DNA of 64,000 nucleotides from Pegea sp. RAD2-039 (taxonomy: Eukaryota; Chordata; Thaliacea; Salpida; Salpidae). The position numbers and the translations under genes were made by a program. The notes beneath the pieces are model-generated. The model was not told where the DNA came from. It made no database searches and was given only the letters and a program-made list of their open reading frames with translations. Shown here piece by piece: positions 48,750-56,800 of the stretch. Numbering within the stretch: the stretch's first letter is position 1; each line of letters begins with the position of its first letter. The stretch is taken from positions 682,001 through 746,000 of the forward strand of contig JAQGEQ010000071.1 of assembly GCA_034620365.1 (NCBI GenBank), written 5' to 3'.

Positions 48750-50872
48750 CTAAATAATTGTGACGTCGAATTCACGAGCATCGATACCGTTAGGGTTAGA
48801 TACAACAAAAGAGTATTTCCCTGCATCGGTTTCTCGTGCATTCAGTATTGTAAGAGTTGATGAGTGATCTGATGTAAGAACTCTAACTCTTCCATTTTCA
48901 TACTCATTGCTGTAAAGCAATTTTGATTTTAATAAATCTGATCGTTATAATTTAAAACTATAAAAATCTACCTCAAAGGACGCCCACTTTTGTTCCATAC
49001 TGCTGAAAATGGCAGTGGAATTGAAATTGAAGCGTCTACAGTGATATTTTTGCCTTTGCTCACAGTCACATGACTTGTAATTCTTTCAATTTTTGGTTGA
49101 CTTCCACCCCGTCCTCTTGATACTATAAATCAAGTGTTGGTGATAAAACTTTCAGTTTATTGTACTACTTATCAATTCATTACTTTTTTGTAATAAATTT
49201 GTAATTTTTACTTACACACTTGATCAGTTCCGGCAAAAAAACCATCACCAGGCAACCGTTTATTCGGCTGTCGTTCGACTCCAAACTTTTGATGTTTCAT
49301 GAATGATTTACCTCTCATCCGTTGACAAGCATCATGGCTAAGTGTACAAACTGTTCCAATCTTATCACCATTATCTCCAGTCACTACGCATTCATATAAT
49401 CCAGCATCAGTAGTTTGAACTTGATCAATAATCAGAGAATAGCAAGGTCCATGTCTTTCCAAACAGTAGATACTATTAGAACTGCAAAAAAAACAATTCT
49501 TAATTGCCGGGCTACAAAGCAAGTCTTGTAAACTAACCCAATGACTCGACCATCTTTAAACCATTCAACTGATCTCACTTGAGATGCATTTGTCACTTCA
49601 CATTCGAGTCTAAGGCTTCCATCGAATCTATACTCGATATGAAGATCATTTATTATCTCAAGTCGCTTTGTTTTTCGCCTTGAAGGGGCTAAGAAATCCC
49701 TGAAAAATGATTTATAGAATAAAACAACTCAACAACAGATTAGGAGACTAACTCTTCGTATGTCGTAAATGGTTGATATTTTTTGCCGGCGACACTAAGT
49801 GAAAATTCACTTGTAGCGTTGCCATTAGAGGATTCAATTAAACATTGATAGCTTCCACTATCAGATCCTGTACATCGTCGAACTTCAAGAGTATGAAGAT
49901 TATTTTCAATGTTGATCACAAATTTGCCACTATCACTGATAACACGCCCATTTCGTAACCACAGTACTACACAATTTGACAAAATATCAGTTGAGCAATT
50001 TACTCATTTATTTGTTACCAACCTCTATGAGCTAATCTGGCAGCACATCGAGCTGTAAATACTGCATCATCTCCTTCTAATACTTGCTCACTTTTGGGGC
50101 GTATAATAAAATAAGGATCATGTATATCTCCCCTACTGTGGTGATGCAGTGAAGAAGAAGTCCTGACGCTACTTTGACTTGAAGGTTGCATTAGTGATGC
50201 TTGATATTCGCTGATTCTACTCGAAGATCTCGATCTGGGATTAGCGCCACAATTTGTGGGTTTCGAAATCCGCTTGTAATCAGTATCGCGACCAAATGGT
50301 CTGGACACTTTACATGAATCTGTGTCTTCTGGATATGATGTCTCTGTTGATCTATAAGTATTTATCTTTTAGATTTTAGCTGTTGAATAGTTATTTTCTT
50401 AAACCTTTCATAATATGGAAGCACAGCACCTCGTGCTCTGAACTCTGATTGGGTGATTTCCAAAGTAGAGACATCCGAGCATTCACCAAGATAATTTTTA
50501 CAAACAACACGATACACACCCTCATCTGCTTGATGGCATTTATAAATATCCAATGTCAGAACACCTGAAAGAAGCAAAGTTGAGTTGATAGTCAACAACA
50601 GTAGTGAACACTAACCTCCGATATTAGTCATTCGGTATTTAGTACCACCAGGAAGCAACTCTGTTCCGTTCTTGTACCATCTGATTGTTGGTTCTGGCTT
50701 GGCTCGAACACAAGCACTAATCTTTGTAGTCATACCCTCTACAACTATATTCGATTTCATTGGTAGTTGGAATATCGGAGCGTAATCTCCAGGTATTATT
50801 CCTTCTTTTAGTTTTGAGCTAGTGAACTCAAGTCCAGAGGAAATGTCTTCTTCATACTCATCGTAATCAGGT
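48750..50872 (-). other. TTN: Titin C-terminal M-band Ig domains (M4, M5, M6 and terminal M10-like)
   Basis: Exons 50616-50872 and 50405-50564 hold the M4-like Ig (IRWYKNGTELL, GVLTLDIYKCH). A Ser-rich linker, then M5-like (LWLRNGRVISDSG) and M6-like (VEWFKDGRV, ending with a basic GKSFMKHQKFG) follow. The final Ig (SQPKIERITSHV to FDVTII) occupies the position of M10, the obscurin-binding domain in vertebrates. Nothing equivalent to M7, M8 or M9 lies between. Confidence 0.8.
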
Positions 50873-53800
50873 CTATATAGAAAATAATTATTCAAAGATA
50901 AACTGGATGCCTGACTGCTGATATGATGAGTAGTAAAACTTAAACTTACTTGTTGCGATGGTTACGTCGTCTCTGTCTCCATCTGCTTTTATTAGATGCA
51001 ACAGCTTCTTCTTCATCTTCAGAAGATGAATATGTTTTCCTTAAGTTTATTTTACTATTTTCTTGTCTCTTTCGAGACTGATCAACGTGCATCATCAGCT
51101 CTTCATATTCTAAAGATCTGCGGCGTTTTTTGTTTATCTTATTCTCATCTATAGCAGACGTCTTCTTGTGCCGTTTATCTTGGACTACTTGCAAATCACC
51201 AGCTTCTACATTTGATTTACTTTGCTTTCTACGCTTCAAGTAGTTGCTTCCAGCAAATTCACTTTCAGCATCAGTTGAATCTGCTTGCCCATGATACTTC
51301 ATTACAAGGGCTGAAAATGGGGTAAGAAGTTCGTCGTCTTCTTCTAGTCCTCCACTTCTGCTAGTTGTTGACTTGCCTGAATGTTTTTCAAAACTTCTGT
51401 AAAGTAGAAGATAACTTTAAATACATTTGAAACACATTAGAACAGTTTATTAACCTAGTTGGCATGCTTGGAGCCATTGCACGGTCATGCCTCATTCGAA
51501 GTGACTTAAATGATGTTGAATCATCTTGCGATTGTCTATGAAGCGATTGAGTTGGGTAGATAAAACTCAACTTTTCCACAGAAGATTTATTTCCTATTTG
51601 TTCATCTGTTTGATTGTATGTTAATGTGTCTTGATTAATTGGAAGGAGAAGATCATCATCAGGTTCCACTTCAATTACTCTTCCATCTTCTCGTTGTAAG
51701 GTTCTTGAAAAATATTTTAGTTTACAAATTGTTTTCAAAACTAAATTTTTTCTCACTTTGTTTTTCGAGGCTTCTTCAAGGCGTTGTCGTGCCTCAAACG
51801 AAGATTTAGGAATGTCTCTGGAGATTCTTCAACACTCTTATGCCCGATGTCGGAATAACTGGGAGTAGGTTTGAAGTCGGCTTTGGTTTGTTCATCTCTC
51901 ATCTCTCTACTGTGCTGATCCATTAAATCCAAGTAATCAGTATACTCAGTTTTAGTGGTAGGTACAGACTGGCGTCTTGTATCATACACTAGATCTTTAT
52001 TAGCCTCTTCATTTAGATAGTCATCCACTGATTGAAGCAGCTGCCAGATTAAAACAATTAATTAGTGAAAATTTTATTAACAGAATGTTTAGATAAACAA
52101 ACCTTTGCGTCTTCTAATTTTCGATATTTATTGACTCCTTCAACTGGACGTTGACTTTGTGATTGCATAAAGTCATCAATTGAATGCTGCTCTAAGTAAT
52201 CACTAACGGGTTTTAATAGCTGTAGAAAATAAAAAGTTGATAAAATTTAAAGTTTGTAAACTATTTGTCAAAACTTACTTCTGAATCATCAAGAGTAGCC
52301 GACTTCTGAAGACCAAAACGATTATCTGAAGAGGTACCCATAAACTTGTTGATAGCACTTTGCTCCAAGAAGTCACTTACAGGTTGTAAAAGCTGAAAAT
52401 TCATAATTTAATAATTACCTTTGATTCACAATCAACTGATAATTTCTCACTTCTTTATCTTCACGATTCTGTTTATATATATTGATAGGTTCTTCTTGAG
52501 AAGGCTTTCTTCCTTGAATAATACTTCTTTTAAATGGTATCAAGGCTCGTCTTCTAGCTGCAAGAGTAGGACTAATAGATCGATCACTGTCTAGTGGTTT
52601 ATAACGTAGAGGTTTTGCCACAAATTCTTCATCACCAGAATAATCTCCATCCATAGCTCTTTCTTTAATTCTATAAAATTTGAACAATCAAGATTAATTT
52701 ATTAATTAAAAGCTGCATTTTTATGAACTCAATCAAAGCTTGTAAAATGTTTCACAGTAAAATGCTTTCAATTAACCTTTCACGTTTAGTCAGTCGTTTT
52801 GCAGGAATAACATATCCTGGATCCTCTATGTAATGATGACGACGTAGGGGTCTTGATCGTGGTAAAACAGGAGTAGTTGTATCTGGGAATCGTTTGAAAG
52901 ATTCGTCATCATCGACCATCTTCTTGTACCACGGTTGATCACTTAATGGTCTATAGTGTTTGATTGCAGCATCTTCTTGCAATGTTTTGCGAGATAATGT
53001 CAGTGGTTCAGGCACTGTATATGGCATTCGATGACTATGGACAACTTCTGTAAGGCGATCTTTTTCATCTAGAAGTTTTTGAGAAGAATCTTTAAGGGAA
53101 CTTCTATCTGGAAGTTGATACGATTTTGCTGAAGCTTCCCTATCAATTTGTCTGTATATAAAAGATGAAGATTTGGTATTTTCAAATTACAATGAAAATT
53201 GATATTTACTTTGAGTGGTCTTTGTGGACATATGGCAAGACCTTCAACAAGGCACAACATGAACAGCTCCCAGCAATATTCTTAGCTGTGAGTTTGTAAA
53301 CTCCAGCATCAATACTACAAACATCACGGACGAGAAGATAGTACAAGTTTTCACTTTCCCATTCAATTTCGTGTCTGGGACCAGTCTTTAAAGGCTGTCC
53401 ATCTTTTTCCCATTCAAGATCAACTTCTGGATGACCTTCAACTCCAACATCAAAACGAACAATTTCTCCTTCACAAATTTCTTGGTTTACAAGAAGTCGT
53501 CGGAATATTGGTGCGATTGGAACATTTGTATCTCGTTTCTTTATTTCTGTAAACAGATGAATTGAAATCTTCTGGTGATTCATTCGCTGAATCTAACTGA
53601 CGTTCTACAGTAAGTGTTGCGCGACATTCATCTTGTCCAAAAGAATTTTTCGCTATCACCCAAATACTTCCTTCATCAACTGATGTACAATTGTTGATAG
53701 TGAGGATATGGAGTCCAACTTCTTTTTCAACTGAGTATCTTCCTGTTTCAATCAACTCTTCAGTTACTTCAACAGCTTTGTGGTACCACGTGATCTCAGG

Positions 53801-56800
53801 ATACGGATGAACAGTGACTAAAATATTCAATTGTTAGAGAAGAAATTTTCTCATCTGATATTTTACCTGTGATTGTAAACGAAACTGCTTCGCCAACACT
53901 AGTAGTTCTATTGAAAAGTGGCAAGGTAAATTGTGGTGGGGTTTGTAATGAAACTAAATCTTTAGATTTCTTGGTTTTTAAGCGATCGTCGAAGTATAAA
54001 CTTCGGTTAGTTCGCACCCAGCCTCTGAGTAATCAAAAAACATTAATGAAAATCTTTAAAAACTAACAAATATTTACTTTGTTTTCATTTCCACACACAA
54101 TTCACACAATCTGCTGTTACATCCAGATAAATTCTCAACTTCACATTTATAGCTTCCATCATCTTCTTTAGTGACATCTTTAACGTACAACGCACATGAA
54201 CCCTGAACTGAATCGATTGAGATTTCATATTTGTCACAGCTTTCAATCTTCTTATCATCTTTATACCTATATTTTAAAAACATTATTAATAATTGAAACT
54301 TTGGTATGAATTACTCACCAAGTAAACTTCTCGTTGCCATCAATCGAATCAGATTTCACTTTGCAAACCATTTTGGCATTTTTACTTTCACGAGCAGTCA
54401 CGTGATACATGGGCATCAAATGAGGAGTTTGTTTTTTACCGAACTTCACTTTACTAACGTGTCTCAAATTAGTATCTGCTTCTATAAGAGCAAGCCGACG
54501 ACCAAGAGCACATGTTGAGTCATCTCTTTCTTCTTTAAAGTAACTTTGATAGAGACATCGATGCCAGGATGTAGGGATTTCAACTGATCTTTGTTTCAAT
54601 AGTGTTTGATCTTGTGAATCAGGATTTAGCCATGGATGTTCTAACGCTTCCGAAGCAGTCATTCGTTGATTTTTGTCTTGTGCAAGAAGTCTGTCAACAA
54701 TTTCATTATTAAAATTGTTTAAGATTTACAAGTATTAAAGTTAATATTACCTTGTTATAAAGTCCAGGGCTTTTTCGGTTATTAACTTCCACTTTTCTTC
54801 ATCAAAACTCCATTCTGCTTTTTCAACTTTTGAGACTGTGTCTTTTAGATTCTTCCCGAGGAAGGGTGAAACTCCAGACAGCAGAAGATAAGTGATTGCT
54901 CCGACAGACCACATATCAGCTGAAGTATCGATCTGTTGGTTTGATACAACTTCTGGTGCACTGAACTCGGGATGTTGGTGCGTAAGACGTAATCCTGAAA
55001 ATAGTTGAGAGTTAAATGAAAGTTGTTGCCTGAGTTTAAGTTTCTCACCTTCTCCAGGCTTAAGAACTTTAGCTGATTCAAAATTAACCAGTTTAATGTT
55101 TTTACTCGTTTGTGTTTGAAGAAGAAGATTTTCTGGCCGAATATCCAAATGAACTATGTCGTTGGCATGACAACAAACTAATGATTCGCAAATTTGTCTG
55201 ATGAAAGTGCTACATGAGTCTTCATCCAAAGAAAAGTTTGCACTAGTGATTGCTTCTATGAGGTTAAAACCAGACATGAACTCCAATACTAATGATATTT
55301 CGTCATCTTCTTCAAACCATTCGCAAAGTTGTATTATTTTTGAGTGTTGTAGCTTTTGTAATAAGCAAATTTCGTTGTTTGCTGCTTGTTTGTATTCTGT
55401 TCCTTTTTTGTATTTTTTGATTGCGAATGTTTTTCCTGATGCAATTTCACGAGCTCGGTAAGCAACTGCAGAAGTTCCTTTTCCAAGTACTTCAAACAAC
55501 TGATACTTATCAGTTAATTTTACTGCAGATTTTTCTACAATTGAAGCTATAAACTGTGATTTTTTATCAACTAAATCATCGTAATGAGTACCGTCTAATC
55601 GTGCATCTCTTGTAACAATTATGTCAGTTGGTAGTGAAGCTTTACTCTCACCAACTAAGTTTTCTGCGACAACACGGAACTGATAATTGGTTTTTGCAGC
55701 TGTTCCATAAACCGTATACTTTGTACTATCTGTAGAACCTTCTCTATGCCAGTACTCTCCACCATTACTTGTTTTTTCAATAGTATATTTTATAATTGGT
55801 TTGCCTCCATCATCTTCTGGTGGTGACCAAGTTAAAACGATAGAATCATAGGTAATTTCTGAAGAGTGGACATCACGTGGTGGAGATGGTACATCACTTA
55901 CCACCACCTCAATGGTAGCTTGATCATTACCAAATCGATTTGACAAAGTGATATTATAAAATCCACTGTCGGAGCGCTCAGCGCTAGTGATACTTAACGT
56001 CGTTGACGAGGGTGTGTTGATGATCTTCAAATGATCATCCTCATCAATTTTTAGTGTTTTCTTTGTCCATTTGATTTGTGGAGAAGGATTACTAGTGAAT
56101 GGAATCCGAGCACAAACCACTTCATGAAGCAGACATTCAACTACTCCCGATTGTAAATCATCTATCAGATATATTTCAGGACTTCTTTCAATGATAAGCT
56201 TAGCATCCATTGAAATAGAACCTCCTTGATTGGTTGCTCGTACAGTGTATGGTCCTTCATCGTATTTTCCGTTAATATCCATTAACACCAGCGAGTAATA
56301 GTTTCCTTCACCTTCACATATCTGCATTTTACGAGAACCAGCTATCTCTCTTGCTTGTTTGTACCATTTGACTACAGGCTTGGGATTACCTGAGATCTTA
56401 CAACTAAGTGTGGCTTTCTGACCTGTTTTAGTCACAATATTTTCAATTTCTTCAACAAATCTTGGTGGAATGATTTTCATGTCATCTTTAGGAATTACTG
56501 ATGTCGAAGATTCTGAAGGTTTAGATTCACCACAAGAATTCACTGCCTTGACTCGGAATTCATAAATAAATCCTTCAACTAATCCTTTAACATTAAAAAC
56601 TGTATAATCAGCTTCTTTATCGTCATCATTGATTACTATCCAATGTTTGCGTTTGTTATCATGTCTCTCTACAATGTAATGAGTAACAGGATTCGTATTC
56701 GCACCTTCATATTTTGGTTCTCGCCACGATAAGATACATCCATCTTTTGTAACACCCGAAGCAACAGGTTTCGAAGGAGGTTTCGGTACATCAGGAATTT

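Follow-up and report, generated by a model that had tools for sequence, protein, structure and literature searches.

Repeated ELLxP-type units in the M3–M4-type linker of a salp titin, a candidate series of docking motifs

Results

The titin gene and the linker downstream of the kinase

The window, by which we mean the whole analysed stretch of 64,000 nucleotides of the 105.7 Mb Pegea genome, covers part of a titin gene encoded on the minus strand, as are all the features of the window described below. A kinase frame, recognised by eye in the reading frames, lies near 54600–55560, upstream of the Ig frames. An open frame for an M3-like Ig domain (53206–53592; best PDB match titin 3b43, E = 7.6e-40) stands directly before a linker, and the exon at 50616–50872 contains the linker end together with the first part of an M4-like Ig domain, which scored 22.6 bits against I-set, slightly below the cut-off of 23.7, because the exon stops before the domain is complete. 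The numbering of the flanking domains as M3 and M4 follows the human domain order.

The gene model, predicted from the DNA sequence, comprises eight exons (L1, L2, A to E and the first M4 exon). They splice together without a frame shift, and AG acceptors and GT donors border all of them. Exon L1 (52777–53151, phase 2-2) starts the linker and carries the blocks RMPYTVPEP and EDAAIKHYRPLSDQPWYKKM, which align to a provisional human linker sequence; it is followed by exon L2 (52451–52670, phase 2-0), the small exons A (52279–52392, phase 0-0, 114 nt, 38 aa) and B (52103–52219, phase 0-0, 117 nt, 39 aa), and the larger exons C (51757–52040, phase 0-2, 284 nt), D (51455–51703, phase 2-2, 249 nt) and E (50950–51396, phase 2-2, 447 nt). 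The linker before the M4 Ig domain is 630 aa long, and in a charge-hydropathy plot its composition places it with disordered chains. No Pfam family matched it above the cut-off; the four sub-threshold families listed for E values of 1 or less were three Ig families at residues 635–686 and GP70 (E = 0.074) at residues 234–251, a match over the start of unit B that was taken as chance.

The human linker sequence and the third mammalian unit used in the comparisons are provisional. An alignment of the Pegea linker with this human linker scored 177, a value reached in 0/1000 shuffles, and the part after exon L2 alone gave a score that 3/1000 shuffles equalled. Judging by domain order and these alignments, the 630-aa linker can be assigned to the M3–M4 linker position of titin, downstream of the kinase.

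Six related units in the linker

Six units related to the motif ELLxP were found in the linker: ELLQPVSDFL (A), ELLKPVSDYL (B), KLLQSVDDYL (C), DLLLPINQDT (D; 51625–51654), ELLTPFSALV (E1; 51303–51332) and ELMMHVDQSR (E2; 51072–51101), starting at linker residues 199, 237, 276, 388, 476 and 553, respectively. The first three take their initial residue from the preceding exon, the last codon of L2 supplying the E of unit A, while D stands in exon D and both E1 and E2 are contained in exon E. An earlier sequence-only reading had quoted five peptides and spoken of five or more units; each of the five was located in an open minus-strand frame, in exons bordered by AG and GT that splice together, and, as it had stated, LLQPV, LLKPV and LLQSV begin exons of one phase: A, B and C share the entry phase 0. 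The sixth unit, E2, lies outside the interval 51300–52392 to which that reading referred.

The same reading proposed a shuffled-sequence check of the motif similarity, and within the linker the similarity withstood it. The pattern LLxP[VIF] occurs four times in the linker (shuffle mean 0.025) and [DE]LLxP[VI] three times (shuffle mean 0.003), and 0/20,000 composition shuffles had as many in either case; over the gene-region minus-strand frames of at least 60 aa (49,121 aa), five occurrences of LLxP[VIF] were counted, three of them in the linker. A looser pattern with six matches was written after the units had been seen and was given no weight.

An independent profile was available from mammals, since mouse titin phosphopeptide windows contain DEELLLPIDDYL and EEELLRPVTTTQ (PMC7174613), which bears out the vertebrate counterpart that had been suggested for the motif. 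The profile was made of these two printed 10-mers only, with BLOSUM smoothing, and its top six places on the linker were exactly the six units, with scores of 20.9, 17.8, 15.7, 10.3, 7.3 and 7.0, the next place scoring 4.0. Ranks 1–5, which the comparison covered, each beat the same rank in 2000/2000 shuffles; the residue background of this run included the provisional human sequence.

A wider scan with a background from the Pegea genome only covered the minus-strand frames of at least 40 aa in the window and the loci L004–L018, about 66,000 aa in all with non-coding frames included. Three of the four highest scores belonged to units A, B and C; unit D came 13th, and the 20 matches listed contained neither E1 nor E2. 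Shuffles of the scanned background gave about 9.5 matches at the score of unit D. On this sequence comparison, units A–C stand on their own as matches, and D, E1 and E2 need their context: because of the low ranks and the shuffles, it is their placement and surroundings, rather than the 10-mer itself, that support them. The remaining place among the top four was CLLRPLDDYEEAY, a motif-like sequence elsewhere in the gene region (L013:1126; G000:C1:837126, minus strand). It lies near the start of an apparent exon with about 190 aa of unique sequence followed by Ig and FN3 domains, and its score was reached in 5/200 shuffles of the scanned background.

Mammalian counterparts, spacing and neighbouring motifs

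Mammals seem to have three units, two of them printed for mouse and the third provisional. A reverse profile built from the six window units ranked the three units of the provisional human M-band sequence 1st, 2nd and 3rd, the best shuffle match being as high in 0, 2 and 190 of 500 shuffles, respectively. The last of these values means that human ELLRPVTTTQ is not significant alone, while as a third-ranked score it was equalled in 3/500 shuffles. Local alignment of mouse unit 2 alone with the linker gave no significant result (196/1000 shuffles).

The spacings between the Pegea units are 38, 39, 112 (C–D), 88 (D–E1) and 77 (E1–E2) aa. The distance from mouse unit 1 to unit 2, computed from the residue numbers S33880 and S34005, is 110 aa, and the spacings in the provisional human sequence are 110 (units 1–2) and 77 (units 2–3). 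Two neighbouring motifs accompany the units. The linker contains two copies of LRxRHxxA and the provisional human M-band sequence one, each ahead of an ELLxP-type unit and starting 32 residues before unit D, 37 before E1 and 26 before the human ELLRPV; any copy at all appeared in 2/5000 shuffles of each sequence. In Pegea, it constitutes a further repeat, LRxRHDxA, with one copy towards the end of exon C (LRLRHDNA, 51780–51803) and one towards that of exon D (LRMRHDRA, 51478–51501), and it has a counterpart in the provisional human sequence. The combination RRRSL-x(2-9)-EL[LM] occurs once in the linker, at E2, and twice in the provisional human M-band sequence (0/5000 shuffles of each). The Pegea RRRSL (51111–51125) is a basophilic kinase-type site separated by three residues from unit E2, and a site of this kind precedes human units 1 and 3.

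The weak units D, E1 and E2 retain neighbours and spacing of the mammalian kind. As mammals seem to have three units, it looks as if three positions are shared with them (C, then D or E1, then E2) and three copies are extra (A, B, and D or E1), exon D being a plausible inserted module. This is the simplest reading; an equally possible history is that mammals lost copies.

Exon duplication

The sequence-only reading attributed the spread of the units to tandem exon duplication, an origin that holds for part of the series. Exons A and B are neighbours in the same phase and of nearly equal length (114 vs 117 nt), and their alignment over the whole exon length (score 73, 0/1000 shuffles; protein identity 45%) makes B, by sequence, a clear tandem duplicate of A, in which LLxPVSDxLEQ is the best-kept part. 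Exon C is probably related to both (A–C 6/1000, B–C 11/1000 shuffles), having only its start in common with them. Other pairs gave C–D 7/1000, D–E 24/1000 and C–E 8/1000, the units of C and E not being aligned with each other in the last case. Duplication of small exons does not account for all six units, E1 and E2 being inside one 447-nt exon, and for D, E1 and E2 the attribution is not supported as it was worded: since E1 and E2 share a large exon and D stands off the 5' border of its own, the common exon start explains A–C only.

Little similarity was seen when the intron DNA flanking these three exons (A–C) was aligned, so their duplication does not look recent. A genome search with a 205-aa query covering units A–D found no other copies of this part of the linker, its four matches being the linker's own exons.

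Structure predictions

Structure modelling based on an alignment of exons A, B and C predicted a helix at residues 5–22 of exon B (mean pLDDT 87–88 over residues 1–20). The single-sequence model of exon E contained a low-confidence helix at E1, starting at its Pro, and a long high-pLDDT helix across E2; such charged helices are often over-predicted. Each model covers one exon, the first being based on an alignment of three rows and the second on one sequence; their pTM scores are 0.36 and 0.31. Amphipathicity was not supported as a hallmark of the units, the helical moments of five of the six being below the linker average of 0.24 and that of C being 0.29. PDB searches gave chance-level matches only, both with the region of the units in the provisional human sequence (SDE2, E = 0.28) and with exons A–C (AcrVIA1, E = 0.88).

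FHL and other M-band binders

The M3–M4 linker has been reported to bind DRAL/FHL-2 (PMC6922384), an M-band review names the FHL2 site is2 (PMC7023976), and titin is described as having two FHL2 sites, of which this one is the weaker (PMC8553726). Since Lange 2002 is the source given for the FHL2 statement in PMC6922384 as well as in PMC8553726, is2 would be the M3–M4 linker, and FHL is the best candidate partner because the linker appears to be this reported FHL2 site. FHL2 has also been located at the titin kinase and at the edge of the M-line (PMC12826672). The Pegea genome contains an FHL-like gene with four LIM matches within about 1 kb (G000:C23:465949-466873, in L019, G000:C23:463001-470000); its exons are LIM-type, and the one exon run against PDB had FHL2 as the best match (E = 6.9e-14).

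Three other partners had been proposed in the sequence-only reading. Myomesin binds titin M4 and was set aside as the partner of the units. Obscurin was likewise set aside, obscurin/Obsl1 having been crystallised with titin M10 (PMC6922384). The case of MuRF is mixed, and it was set aside weakly: the MuRF1/2 sites are listed on the A-band, yet MURF1 and MURF2 are also named among M-band interactions (PMC10912352). The passages of the literature examined name no partner tied to the linker other than FHL2/DRAL.

Phosphosites beside the mouse units

If the mouse phosphosite is read as the middle residue of the printed window, S33880 is the Ser directly before DEELLLPI and S33875 is the Ser of RRRRRSL, which stands ahead of mouse unit 1 and whose Ser is listed as a phosphosite (PMC7174613). 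In PKD1-knockout hearts, the singly phosphorylated S33880 peptide was significantly lower (log2 −0.66, −log10 p 1.33), while a doubly phosphorylated form with S33880 showed no significant change; S34005 and S34009, beside mouse unit 2, were lower, with a listed −log10 p of 0 (PMC7174613).

Discussion

The passages found in the literature searched, which was mostly open-access, contained no description of the motif as a repeat, in agreement with the sequence-only reading. The repeat appears to be new; the linker and its FHL2 link were already known.

The closest known counterpart is the vertebrate M3–M4 linker (is2), which occupies the corresponding position between the Ig domains and has sequence blocks and ELLxP units in common with the Pegea linker, the human side of this comparison being provisional. 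The two differ in the number of units (six in Pegea, two printed for mouse, three in the provisional human sequence) and in exon structure, as three Pegea units start separate exons and mammals have one large exon. Titin Z-repeats offer a likeness of organisation: they are also short repeated units, one per small in-frame exon, in several copies per titin, with seven splice-prone repeats of 138 bp per exon described (PMC9408699). They are situated at the opposite end of titin, in the Z-disc, and bind alpha-actinin, whereas the partner of the Pegea units is only a candidate; the A–B–C stretch had no Z-repeat match among PDB chains at E up to 5. The KSP repeats of the M5–M6 linker, which are phosphorylated and then bound by Bin1 (PMC6922384), are a short motif repeated in an M-band linker as well, but in another linker and with another motif. 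The N2B unique sequence, likened here by description, is likewise inserted in titin, was for long regarded as disordered and is reported to make many contacts with FHL2; it differs in belonging to the I-band and in that its 24 FHL2 contacts, of 3–5 residues, were modelled as strands (PMC11530556).

We consider it probable that the units are a repeated docking motif of some kind. As the best explanation of what the motif serves, we tentatively favour a chain of FHL-docking peptides, resembling the Z-repeats in principle: we infer that the units are the FHL contact, that this contact is multivalent and that phosphorylation matters. Each unit would be one instance of a short docking motif of linear type, [E/D/K]-L-[L/M]-x-P-[V/I/F], with its Pro replaced in two of six units, followed by a short helix and strung along the disordered M3–M4 (is2) linker of a chordate titin. 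Extra copies (A, B, and D or E1) may have been gained by copying small in-frame exons, and several weak contacts to one M-band partner would raise avidity with copy number, as with Z-repeats and alpha-actinin; nearby serines could tune binding through phosphorylation.

The same repeat may instead be a conserved docking motif for another M-band partner, such as the myosin tail, a kinase or phosphatase, MuRF, MyBP-C or another adaptor, and this we regard as almost as likely as the FHL reading. A motif common to Pegea and mouse suits such a reading, and the drop of S33880 in PKD1-knockout hearts would suit a regulated dock for any partner. The published FHL2–N2B mode, with short strands that may need no such motif, is also different from the helix predicted for the units, and that is2 is the weaker FHL2 site counts against FHL as well. 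What speaks for FHL nevertheless is that FHL2/DRAL is the only partner tied to the linker in the passages of the literature examined.

Two further readings give the units no external partner. If the linker tolerates length change, small in-frame exons could have been copied in a mostly neutral growth of a spacer, the motif being an exon-start remnant with no multivalent role; the disorder-like composition, the weakness of D, E1 and E2 and the restriction of strong full-exon duplication to A and B would all be expected from it. We think it unlikely, as exons A and B, at 45% identity, keep LLxPVSDxLEQ best, and the motif is common to Pegea and mouse. Packing of the motif inside titin or between titin pairs, with helices lying on a neighbouring Ig domain or on the long exon E helix, would be in line with the helices predicted for unit B from the A/B/C alignment and across E2; it seems very improbable, the single-exon models (pTM 0.36 and 0.31) showing no packing.

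The docking reading can be extended to chordate titins in general, with a conserved, phospho-regulated multivalent array, equivalent in the M-band to the Z-repeats, in which the number of small exons sets valency and skipping of the 0-0 exons A and B could alter it; the partner would then have a further site at CLLRPLDDYEEAY, likened to the two FHL2 sites reported on mammalian titin. We find this broader form rather doubtful. A named, repeated and conserved motif of 10 residues gives the exact residues to mutate in human titin and connects mouse S33880, a phosphosite that depends on PKD1, with a possible docking peptide; the natural difference in copy number between chordates could serve to test whether valency matters at the M-band.

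Elsewhere in the genome, a Glyco_hydro_6 match was found in L022 (G000:C14:74494-74718; E = 1.2e-4); at 27.5 bits against a cut-off of 27, it is weak. GH6 genes in animals are a mark of tunicates, and the match gives a hint consistent with a tunicate genome.
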